Assembly (NCBI GenBank): GCA_029547605.1
Contig: JAKPPB010000077.1
Coordinates: 1-46,816 of the forward strand
DNA from: Methanobacteriota archaeon
Lineage (GTDB): Archaea > Halobacteriota > Methanomicrobia > Methanomicrobiales > Methanospirillaceae
DNA length: 46,816 nucleotides
Direction of reading: 5' to 3'
The notes under the pieces are model-generated. The model was not told the DNA's origin. It made no database searches and saw nothing but the letters and a program-made list of their open reading frames with translations. The translations under genes and the position numbers were made by a program. Shown here piece after piece: positions 14,336 through 17,135 of the stretch (positions are counted from its first letter, which is position 1; every line of letters begins with the position of its first letter).

Positions 14336-14860
14336 TCAGGGAAGAAGTGTGAAGCGGAAGCTTGCGGTGGACAGCGGCACCTCAATCCCCTGGACCTTCA
14401 CCAGGTACTCGTCGGGTTCCCATCCGCGGGTATCGATCAGGTACGACCAGGTATTCGGAAGCCCGCGTTCTCCTGCGAGGACCGCCACGACACCCGCACT
14501 CCCAGAGACCGCGACCGGATCACTCTTTCTCGTCGGGCCAAACGAGACAGGCGTGACCTCAACGAGGATATGGTTTCCGGGAGAGAGGATCGTCGTACCG
14601 TTAAGAAGGATACGGTCTCCTGCTCGGTAGGCACCCTGATGCCTGAAGGGATGTGCCAGATTCGGAGGCAGGGGAGGCTCTTCGGGTTTTCCGGCATCAA
14701 CTCCTCCATCCATGACTCGAGGGGTAGGGGGGGCAGAGAAGGTCCCGTGAGCAGGCACTTCTCCCTCAGGGCCTTTCGCCATGAGACAGCCCCCAGAGAC
14801 AGATGCCAGCACTGCAATGATAAAAACACATGCCAGCCAATCACGCGTGCGCATGATCAT
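14336..14860 (-). CDS. Predicted exported lipoprotein
   Basis: About 174 residues. The N-terminus MIMRTRDWLACVFIIAVLAS followed by VSGGC is a lipoprotein-type signal with the modified Cys near residue 26. After a Pro-rich linker comes a beta-rich domain (AGDRILLNGTTILSPGNHILVEVTP ... NTWSYLIDTRGWEPDEYLVKVQGIE) of a type common in surface proteins of Methanomicrobiales. ATG 14860 or ATG 14854 are both possible; no Shine-Dalgarno is visible, and the open frame to 14998 is not expected to be used. It converges on the HEAT gene with 22 bases between. Confidence 0.7.
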   Translation of the reverse strand: MIMRTRDWLACVFIIAVLASVSGGCLMAKGPEGEVPAHGTFSAPPTPRVMDGGVDAGKPEEPPLPPNLAHPFRHQGAYRAGDRILLNGTTILSPGNHILVEVTPVSFGPTRKSDPVAVSGSAGVVAVLAGERGLPNTWSYLIDTRGWEPDEYLVKVQGIEVPLSTASFRFTLLP

Positions 14861-15007
14861 GAGGGTGCGGGGCTTGGTAAAGAATCTTCGGGGTGATGGC
14901 AGGGGCCCGCGATGGGCGGGGGGGCCTTTGCCAATCGGTGTGCTCTGGCGATACCCATAAGGCCCCGGCACACAAAAGAGAGAGGAGAAAGAGGGCAAGG
15001 GTGCACG

Positions 15008-15658
15008 ATGCCACCACAGGAGAGACCATCCACAAGGGAAGAGGTGATACTCGCCCTGAATGCCAAATTCGCAGTGATGCGCAGGCTATACGGAGTGAAG
15101 AAGATCGGCATCTTCGGTTCGGTCGCCCGCGGCGAGGAGCGGACCGAAAGCGATGTCGATATTGAGGTGGAATTCGATTCAGGGATGGACACCTATGCAA
15201 ATTATATCGGCCTTTCCCTGTATCTCGATGAACTCCTTGGGAGGAGAGTTGACCTTGTGTTGTCCCGCGTGCTCGCCTCGTATATCAGGCCTGAACTTGG
15301 TGCCGAGTTTGCGGTGCTCAGCCGCGACAAGGTGTACCTCGGCCAGATCCTCGATGAGATCACCTATCTCTCCCACCGCACAAAGGGTGTGTCCGCCCGG
15401 GAATTCCAGAAGGACGAGACGCTCCGCCGTGCAGTGGTCCGCAGCCTGGAGGTCATAGGTGAATCAGCGGCAAGGGTCTCGGACCAGTGCATGCAGGAAT
15501 CCAGGGGGATCTCCTGGAACGAGCTCGAAGGGCTCAGGTCACGGCTGATACACCCCTACTTCTCACCTGACTGGGGTCTCGTGTGGAACGTGCTCAACGT
15601 TTATCTTCCCACCGTTGAACCGGCGCTCCGGAAACTCCATGCCCGGATTTCGCGATGA
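15008..15658 (+). CDS. Fused MntA-type nucleotidyltransferase and HepT-type HEPN protein
   Basis: 216 residues containing two domains normally encoded by two adjacent genes. Residues 1-105 are a minimal nucleotidyltransferase: G37-S38, then ten residues, then D49-x-D51, with D82 in RRVDLV as the third acidic residue. Residues 106-216 are a HEPN (DUF86/HepT) domain with the family motif R177-SRLI-H182-P-Y184. In characterised two-gene systems, HepT is an RNase toxin and MntA inactivates it by adding AMP to the motif tyrosine. Here all catalytic residues of both halves look intact and are in one open frame, so modification in cis is plausible. ATG 15008 is preceded by GGGTG; the frame is open back to 14912. 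A T-rich stretch follows the gene. The fused form could also be a non-toxic regulatory descendant. Confidence 0.88.
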   Translation: MPPQERPSTREEVILALNAKFAVMRRLYGVKKIGIFGSVARGEERTESDVDIEVEFDSGMDTYANYIGLSLYLDELLGRRVDLVLSRVLASYIRPELGAEFAVLSRDKVYLGQILDEITYLSHRTKGVSAREFQKDETLRRAVVRSLEVIGESAARVSDQCMQESRGISWNELEGLRSRLIHPYFSPDWGLVWNVLNVYLPTVEPALRKLHARISR

Positions 15659-15979
15659 AATCTGTTCTTATCTGAACAATACCCGCCTTTTCCTTCCTTT
15701 CGAACTTTCGTTCATGGATCGGTGTGGGACCGGGGAATATGACTTGGTTTAGTGGAGGCGGTCTCACCCCCACCCTCACCACACGATGCAATACCCTTCG
15801 CCTCAAAAATTTCATTAATGAGTTCCCATCTCCCTAGACCCCGCGAATGGGACTCCATCCTTTCCAACACTCCCACATACCCACAGCAGGGATGATTCCC
15901 GAACACTCCCACGAAGTGTTGAAAATGGAAGCGGTTGACCTTGCTGAATATTTTTAATAAGACAGCAACATCAACAACC
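15659..15979. other. Gene-poor stretch with two inverted repeats
   Basis: No convincing gene. T-rich ccttttccttcctttcg at about 15686-15702 may terminate the MntA-HepT transcript. One inverted repeat pairs 15724-15732 (gtgggaccg) with 15759-15767 (cggtctcac), nine pairs with one G-U. A second pairs 15854-15871 (tccatcctttccaacact) imperfectly with 15915-15929 (agtgttgaaaatgga). The second repeat encloses the 9-mer aacactccc twice. This may be a structured leader or a regulator-binding region for the gene at 16155. Confidence 0.4.
15949..15960 (+). promoter_or_regulatory. TATA-like box upstream of the unknown gene at 16155
   Basis: tatttttaataa centred at about 15954. The expected transcription start, about 26 bases downstream, coincides with an ATG at 15980, so the transcript would begin either as a leaderless small message or with a 175-base leader for the gene at 16155. 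Confidence 0.4.
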
Positions 15980-16093
15980 ATGCAAGAAGTCACAAGGGAA
16001 TGCCGGGGTGAAGACCGATCCGTTGGCTGCGATACCCCTATGGACCTTTCACTGGTACTGCCCTGCGTGGTATCGTTTATTATTCATCGGTGA
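15980..16093 (+). CDS. Possible small leaderless ORF (37 aa)
   Basis: ATG to TGA frame beginning MQEVTRECRGEDRSVGCDTP, with no match I recognise. The case for it is position only: it begins where transcription from the TATA-like box at 15949-15960 should start, which suits a leaderless archaeal mRNA. It could be a leader peptide ahead of the gene at 16155 or simply untranslated leader. Low confidence. Confidence 0.2.
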   Translation: MQEVTRECRGEDRSVGCDTPMDLSLVLPCVVSFIIHR

Positions 16094-16154
16094 CGAAGTT
16101 ACATTCTGTTGAGATGCGCCCCGGTCCTGCATGCCCTCTCGCTGGAAGTGACGG

Positions 16155-17135
16155 ATGAACCACTCGTTTAATCTCTCCCCTGTCCTGCGTGAGCTCCTCG
16201 AGTTCGCGGAGGGATGCCTCGGGACCGAGATCCAGCTTGTCAGGAGGACTGACGTGCCTCCCCAGGGAGTCCTCATCGATGACTTCATGTTTGGAACCGG
16301 CAAGCATGTGATCGCGTTCTCGAGTTCCCAGCTTGGGATGCTCAAGGACTACACCATCTGCCGCCACTGCCTGGAACTCCTGGCAAAGGGCTGTGCGGCC
16401 AAAAACAATGATTTTCGGGTCATCTCCTTCTCAAAGGAGTGTGCGCTCCCCGCCTGTCAGCAGATCTACCTTGACATCCTCAAGGACGAAGGTACCCGGA
16501 ACATTGCCGTCTGGAGAAAGAAGCAGCTCGTCTTTCTCCTGTACATGCTCTTCCACGAGGCATTCTCCGAGCTCCCGCTCACGCTCCTCGCAAACCTCAT
16601 CATTTCGAGGAAATACCCCGTGATCAGGAATGCCCAGGTATACTTCCTCTTAAAAGAGAGCATGCGGGACATGCACGACCTGGTCCCCGTCAAAGAGTTC
16701 CTGCCCCAGCGTTATTTTGTCCTGCATAATGGGATGTACTATGCCAGGGACATGCTGCTTGCATATGTGCTCTCCGAGTACAAATTGAACCCTGTCATCA
16801 ACATCCCCGAACTCCAGCGCTTCCGCAACCTGGACGTCAAAGAGATGATGAGCCACCGCTGGAGCCGTTCCCCATGGTACCATACCAAGATGGTAGGGGA
16901 TGCGCTCTCGAACATCCTCAAGCTCACCATTACCATGGACATGGAGAGGGAATTAAACGAGGAATATTTCAGGGAGATCTTTGCGCTTTCACGAGAGATA
17001 CTCTCACGCTGGGGGGTAATGATGGGAATGCAGGACTGGTTTGTCTGGGAGAGTCCTGCGCACCTGAAAGCAGCGCTCGCCGCGCAGCAGGGAATGGAAT
17101 CGGCTATTCAGCAGGAGATATTCGGGACTGACTGA
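16155..17135 (+). CDS. Unknown protein, 326 aa
   Basis: I do not recognise this family. The protein is soluble in appearance, without signal peptide or clear membrane helix; the most hydrophobic part is LVFLLYMLFHEAFSELPLTL near residues 122-141. Cysteines are grouped in the first third (CRHCLELLAKGC, then CALPAC), which could bind metal, but no known motif results. HEAFSE is not a convincing metalloprotease site because the HExxH pattern is incomplete. Codon use and composition match the neighbours. It has its own upstream region (see 15659-15979 and the TATA-like box) and is followed 113 bases later by aspS, so it is probably a single-gene transcript. Confidence 0.75.
   Translation: MNHSFNLSPVLRELLEFAEGCLGTEIQLVRRTDVPPQGVLIDDFMFGTGKHVIAFSSSQLGMLKDYTICRHCLELLAKGCAAKNNDFRVISFSKECALPACQQIYLDILKDEGTRNIAVWRKKQLVFLLYMLFHEAFSELPLTLLANLIISRKYPVIRNAQVYFLLKESMRDMHDLVPVKEFLPQRYFVLHNGMYYARDMLLAYVLSEYKLNPVINIPELQRFRNLDVKEMMSHRWSRSPWYHTKMVGDALSNILKLTITMDMERELNEEYFREIFALSREILSRWGVMMGMQDWFVWESPAHLKAALAAQQGMESAIQQEIFGTD

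Follow-up and report, generated by a model that had tools for sequence, protein, structure and literature searches.

Type VII toxin-antitoxin systems pair a HEPN ribonuclease, HepT, with the minimal nucleotidyltransferase (MNT) MntA, each encoded by its own gene. In the pairs studied, the tyrosine in the RX4HXY motif of HepT receives AMP units from MntA, which blocks the RNase (PMC7641770). Examples are SO_3166/SO_3165 of Shewanella, whose products form a complex of 2:6 MntA:HepT, and CL1_0071/0070 of Thermococcus cleftensis (PMC7641770). Spread of these pairs is typically mobile and patchy (PMC2701414). Single chains combining both domains have also been described: Table 1 of PMC3710099 lists the HEPN-M group as "occasionally fused to MNT", the HEPN domains of such fusions are characterized as typically lacking the RNase residues, and domestication is proposed for them; toxin-antitoxin pairs have been suggested to give rise to new cellular enzymes (PMC3710099). 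Plasmid pAgK84 is mentioned in PMC2701414 as carrying a HEPN-MNT fusion. The existence of MNT-HEPN fusions and of RNase loss in them is therefore already known in general terms (PMC3710099). A nucleotidyltransferase followed by a helical domain, considered HEPN-like in PMC3710099, is also the architecture of kanamycin nucleotidyltransferase and the ANT enzymes (1kny, 6un8). The Cmr1-MntA chain (PDB 9z7q), comparable by its name, joins an MntA-like part to Cmr1 rather than to HepT; its sequence match to the protein described here is weak (32 residues, E 0.005), and no paper on that chain was found among the 10 of 51 papers listed in the literature search. Nor was any paper found on the methanogen gene described here, most subscription journals lying outside the search.

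The window, i.e. the entire analyzed stretch of 46,816 nucleotides from an archaeon of the family Methanospirillaceae, contains on its forward strand a single uninterrupted frame (15008..15658) encoding a protein of 216 amino acids. Residues 24–89 (15077..15274, forward strand) form an MntA-like minimal nucleotidyltransferase domain matching Pfam family PF01909 (NTP_transf_2) at 2e-11, with 44.6 bits against a curated cut-off of 21, and residues 114–209 (15347..15634, forward strand) form a HepT-like HEPN domain matching PF01934 at 1.7e-18 (66.9 bits, cut-off 23.5). The MNT motif comprises G37, S38, D49 and D51, the serine and first aspartate separated by ten residues, and D82 supplies the third acid. 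In the HEPN domain, R177-x4-H182-x-Y184 (15536..15559, forward strand) contains the putative RNase dyad and the candidate AMP-acceptor tyrosine. The preliminary description of this DNA, which reported one frame with the GSx10DxD and R-x4-H-x-Y motifs, was thus correct in its residues. The NCBIfam equivalogs MntA_antitoxin (41.8 bits) and HepT_toxin (24.0 bits) score below their 60-bit cut-offs.

The ATG start of the frame is aligned in all six genus members compared. The inter-domain junction, at about residues 101–109 (15308..15334, forward strand), contains no conserved start from which a separate HepT could be produced: the best start-like position between residues 94 and 123 is present in 12 of 33 fused sequences, and within the genus of the window the best position occurs in no more than six of 12 fused genes. 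The fusion shares with type VII HepT/MntA the PF01909 and PF01934 domains, their MNT-then-HEPN order, and the GSx10DxD and RX4HXY motifs. It differs in being one chain with a fixed 1:1 ratio, in contrast to the 2:6 complex of Shewanella, and in its fixed locus, its eroding RNase dyad and its sub-cut-off NCBIfam scores. Because one frame is found in 33 of the 108 family genomes and no internal start is conserved, the protein does not belong to the two-gene systems; by the tests made it is not a two-component toxin-antitoxin and is best filed as a domesticated MNT-HEPN fusion. Single-chain organization is common to that class (PMC3710099), but the copy in the window retains its RNase residues.

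A full-length single-frame fusion is present in 12 of the 13 genomes of the genus. The exception, G007, also lacks matches to the neighboring gene w16155 (E 0.001) and to aspS (E 1e-100), so that the locus is probably unassembled there. In the whole family the complete fusion was found in 33 of 108 genomes, belonging to eight genera, and in one more genome (G021) it is cut by a contig end; all counts out of 33 exclude G021 and contig C125, discussed below. This recurrence across many genomes rules out an assembly frameshift joining two genes, the case that the preliminary description had named as fatal to the fusion. Among the matches listed, the family's remaining genera yielded no full-length single frame, and 20 stretches from 19 genomes of genera without the fusion contained no MNT or HEPN relict near aspS at E 1e-3. 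The aspS gene is present in 19 of these 20 stretches, and in six of them homologues of the HD gene and of w12048 still adjoin it.

Gene order around the fusion was compared at 34 loci, among them G021, where the gene is truncated, and contig C125, the probable contaminant. The aspS gene lies downstream at 32 loci, the contig ending first at the remaining two, and a w12048 homologue lies upstream at 31, the other three loci beginning too near the end of the contig or stretch. The block is not identical throughout: in genus g15 the HEAT-repeat gene and w16155 were not found beside the fusion. A wide scan covering one genome per species in 84,980 species yielded 346 relatives, the best 80 of which were analyzed: 22 are single frames, one is cut by a contig end, two consist of MNT alone and 55 have MNT and HEPN encoded separately. 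The 22 single frames among these best 80 come from genomes titled Methanolinea, Methanoregula, Methanoregulaceae, Methanomicrobiales and, once, Euryarchaeota. The nearest named relatives in the scan, Methanolinea sp. QR_Bin.1 (95%) and Methanoregulaceae archaeon PtaB.Bin056 (94%), place the window in a methanogen of their group. Among plasmid matches, 40 of 1482 records were inspected; in 38 the matched region is annotated as two features, and in two it has no named feature. Eighteen pattern matches on viral contigs were obtained, none of which was confirmed.

The phylogeny agrees with this distribution. In a quick tree calculated with the motif columns removed, a single branch with SH-aLRT support of 100 separates the 33 fused sequences from 51 two-gene pairs, so that the full-length fusions form a clade, the point that the preliminary description had proposed to check. 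The incomplete pairs L096, L128, L105 and L115 were dropped, and L110 and L082, misaligned or gapped, were kept out of the trees. The trees are quick searches with long branches, and the order within the fused clade, in which G024 and G025 group together, is therefore unsure. The fixed locus upstream of aspS, the recurrence in many genomes and the single fused branch make the fusion look like a resident, vertically inherited gene. The mobile and patchy spread typical of type VII HepT/MntA (PMC2701414) is not seen; the fusion occupies the same position upstream of aspS in eight genera.

An apparent second copy in the same assembly, on contig C125 (L050, 4067 bases), was rejected as a paralogue. 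This contig is 99.6% identical to G123, a genome of another genus, has a GC content of 52.5% compared with 58.5% in the window, and is likely a binning contaminant. Its copy was counted among the 34 loci and the 34 motif rows and was excluded from the trees.

On the upstream side, a HEAT-repeat protein is encoded on the same strand, with an opposite-strand gene lacking a Pfam match between it and the fusion. Downstream follow a gene for a 326-amino-acid protein without a Pfam match (w16155, 16155-17135), whose homologues occur in 74 of 108 family genomes, and then aspS. The Pfam matches of the tested neighbors give no hint of a substrate or target of the fusion, and no co-transcribed partner is evident among the surrounding genes. 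The element CGATAYCCATAAG (14949..14961, forward strand), about 47 nt upstream of the fusion start, is kept in each of the six aligned genus members and has a single exact copy in the genome; it is perhaps a promoter. The spacer downstream of the fusion, described in the preliminary account as rich in promoters, does not bear out that claim: a sigma-70 scan of 14700-16200, which does not model archaeal promoters, gave one site compared with a mean of 0.8 (sd 1.0) in shuffled sequences, and the length of the spacer is not conserved, the roughly 500 bases of the window being far fewer in three of the five aligned genus members. The conserved part is the end of the spacer, where about 45 bases (16070-16120) ahead of the gene for the 326-amino-acid protein are strongly conserved in the five members and form a possible promoter with leader.

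The two active sites have had different fates within the clade. S38, D49, D51 and D82 are all kept in 25 of the 33 fused orthologs and the transferase motif is lost in eight, whereas the arginine and histidine of the RNase dyad are present together in only ten, at least one of them being lost in the other 23. The 25 transferase-intact sequences were chosen by S38, D49, D51 and D82, Y184 being no selection criterion, and across them Y184 shows no change. Position 177 is occupied by R in 12, K in 12 and Q in one of these sequences (five changes), and position 182 by H in 15, G in six, L in two and P in two (three changes). The per-site background in the same alignment is a median of three changes, 40 of the 216 sites, Y184 among them, being unchanged; the numbers of changes at R177 and H182 are thus ordinary for the fused protein. 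Both R and H are kept in only nine of the 25, including the copy in the window. In the genus of the window H182 is found in all 12 fused genes and R177 in eight, the others having K. With this background, and with R177, H182 and Y184 all kept, the copy in the window is by its motif residues among the least altered orthologs. Directly after the arginine, 52 of 53 two-gene HepT proteins have D or N; of the 33 fused proteins, 15 have S there, as in the window, and four have T.

Unfused proteins served as controls. In two-gene pairs from the same scan the motif R is present in 51 of 53, H in 51 of 53 and Y in 52 of 53. All three residues are present in each of 20 unfused HepT-like frames (19 from the same family and one from the order; 17 genomes, 16 and one, respectively), of which the HEPN frame alone was examined; these were hand-picked from listings, are mostly open frames and in some cases near-identical, which biases them toward intact genes. 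L051 and L054, without a match among the unfused controls, were read separately. The other PF01934 loci of the window's own genome carry RX4HXY in three of three cases.

In the eight sequences with a broken transferase motif, the position of Y184 is occupied by R in five, F in one, P in one (where the alignment is uncertain) and Y in one (G024). Since the tyrosine is mostly gone where the transferase is broken, this pattern hints that it serves the transferase; the joint loss represents only two independent events, with which significance is unreachable, and G024, keeping the tyrosine despite its broken motif, counts against the tie. Y184 may instead be kept for folding. Erosion of the dyad is likewise open to more than one reading. 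The change of R to K may leave activity in place, and in a Legionella HEPN protein mutation of R and H had a negligible effect on RNase activity (PMC11586414), so that loss of the motif need not equal loss of the RNase. The residue patterns show that in the transferase-intact proteins the transferase and tyrosine are retained jointly and the RNase residues can be lost. The absence of the transferase motif from eight of 33 orthologs indicates that some lineages do without catalysis.

The fused gene is under purifying selection. Whole-gene dN/dS values (NG86) range from 0.055 to 0.251 over 15 pairs of orthologs, being 0.139–0.179 in the six pairs without R-x4-H and 0.063 and 0.120 in the two pairs without the transferase residues; YN00 gave 0.029–0.278 for the same 15 pairs, all but one of which could be estimated. 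Higher single-domain NG86 maxima, 0.40 for HEPN (G123/G127) and 0.76 for MNT (G032/G116), occur where dS is very low. Low dN/dS, including in pairs lacking the motifs, makes pseudogene decay unlikely.

Searches of the phylum (392 genomes) and of a second family, f8 (111 genomes), which we infer to be Methanosarcinaceae, revealed five more MNT-HEPN single chains (G505, G580, G471, G491, and G362). These nest among two-gene pairs from f8, and the tree, which took in 12 of the 33 fused sequences and left out G572, G421 (no HEPN frame at threshold) and G578, requires two origins of the fusion (two changes). The former start methionine of HepT has become isoleucine in these proteins. Every transferase residue tested remains in all five, as does the tyrosine; the histidine is lost in all five (replaced by C or S) and the arginine is lost in three (replaced by G), compared with R, H and Y kept in all 15 two-gene pairs of the family. 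Their dN/dS values (NG86) are 0.157–0.361 over ten pairs. The erosion of the RNase residues with retention of the tyrosine in the transferase-intact sequences, and its recurrence in an independent fusion, go beyond the preliminary description. The literature searches turned up no published account of the fixed locus, of RNase residues lost by degrees among orthologs, of the kept tyrosine or of the second origin, and these also extend what is stated on such fusions in the relevant passages of PMC3710099 and PMC2701414.

Several individual sequences of this search deserve mention. The G471 fusion (L205, just before 3374) has an in-frame TAG shortly before its conserved part, at a position where its relatives have Asn. 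Archaea of this kind may read TAG as pyrrolysine; the codon may be read through in this way, or translation may start later. In G505 a second, broken copy of the fusion (L199, 556-1252) lies about 3 kb upstream of the intact gene. An apparent fusion in G180 was set aside owing to an ambiguous base inside it. In G578 a single frame (L213, 1950-2630, reverse strand) has the reverse order, HEPN then MNT, and precedes an unfused HepT frame whose motif is intact; for both reasons it was not counted as an MNT-HEPN fusion, and it may represent two neighboring pairs run together. Its transferase motif is intact, and its HEPN part has S in place of R, keeps H and has H in place of Tyr, a combination that does not fit the pattern of lost RNase residues and kept tyrosine.

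An AlphaFold2 model of the fusion, built from 23 fused sequences, has a mean pLDDT of 88.2 and a pTM of 0.64; the individual domains are modelled confidently, with their mutual placement unsure. The best alignments of the modelled HEPN part are to HEPN toxins (7ae2, Z 11.6, rmsd 2.6 over 114 residues), and the MNT part aligns with 1wot (Z 10.3, rmsd 3.2 over 89). Helical bundles easily reach such Z values, and a Foldseek search with the model returned nothing at E 0.001; the weight of the assignment therefore rests on the sequence matches. The whole model aligns poorly with the ANT aminoglycoside nucleotidyltransferase 6un8 (179 residues, Z 7.0, rmsd 6.4). Whole-length matches to 1kny and 6un8 are weak throughout (Z 6.7–7.0, rmsd 6.4–7.0), whereas sequence places the fusion with MntA/HepT.

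The chemistry and function of the fusion, inferred here from sequence, are best accommodated by a domesticated former MntA-HepT pair. One fusion event would have occurred in an ancestor within this methanogen family, upstream of aspS, with vertical inheritance since. The unit retained by selection would be the nucleotidyltransferase together with its tyrosine acceptor: most likely the N-terminal domain AMPylates Tyr184 in the HEPN domain to which it is joined, either in cis or from one partner of a HEPN dimer to the other, creating an ATP-dependent modified state that could regulate a partner or the binding of RNA by the HEPN domain. The RNase dyad would no longer be required and would have been lost repeatedly, although the copy in the window, with R177 and H182, may still cut RNA. 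This reading of a gene fused once, inherited vertically, probably self-AMPylating and able to dispense with its RNase is adopted tentatively, its chances falling just short of even. Of the possibilities raised in the preliminary description, cis-AMPylation is plausible, and conversion away from a toxin is favored by the erosion of the RNase residues across the clade. That description had also argued that a covalent fusion cannot act by differential stability of toxin and antitoxin. The fusion is real, but the argument carries little weight, because the AMP addition by which MntA neutralizes HepT is already covalent in two-gene pairs (PMC7641770).

The main competitor to self-AMPylation, somewhat unlikely in our judgment, is that HEPN acts as a substrate-binding domain, as in kanamycin nucleotidyltransferase or the glutamine synthetase-adenylylating enzymes, and the transferase modifies another protein, RNA or a small molecule, Tyr184 being part of the site or fold rather than the acceptor. 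Such a route has been proposed for MNT-fused HEPN domains (PMC3710099) and agrees with the intact transferase motif in 25 of 33 orthologs while the RNase residues vary, and with the poor alignment to 6un8 over 179 residues; it leaves unexplained why Tyr184 is invariant in the 25 transferase-intact sequences and kept in the five independent fusions, and the Pfam matches of the tested neighbors suggest no substrate. The protein in the window, with all its motifs, in a genus that keeps H182 in 12 of 12 genes and R177 in eight of 12, could also be taken for a working toxin-antitoxin or defense module in cis, its RNase held off by AMP on Tyr184 and freed by some signal, for instance when ATP runs low or the modification is lost. 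We regard this as improbable given that 23 of the 33 orthologs sharing the locus have lost R and/or H, that the histidine is gone from all five independent fusions, and that the gene is inherited at a fixed locus. Loss of RNase and transferase residues in some genera would suit a functionless, decaying remnant of a toxin-antitoxin pair, but dN/dS of 0.055–0.361 (NG86) over 25 pairs, including both motif-complete and motif-less sequences, and an open frame and gene order kept across eight genera make decay very improbable.

The locus upstream of aspS shows several stages of one process among orthologs: proteins with all motifs kept, proteins whose RNase residues are gone and proteins whose transferase residues are gone. 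Intermediate stages of toxin-antitoxin domestication are otherwise hard to catch, and the second, independent fusion serves as a replicate. Domestication by self-AMPylation predicts that orthologs without the RNase motif would still AMPylate their own tyrosine. The fusing itself may be what turns a toxin-antitoxin pair into a self-AMPylating switch, with selection retaining the modification and allowing the RNase to disappear as soon as transferase and target tyrosine are in one chain, a step that would have been taken at least two times in archaea and would have produced resident auto-AMPylating proteins with their own cellular role; for this wider proposal the balance currently tips somewhat toward no.
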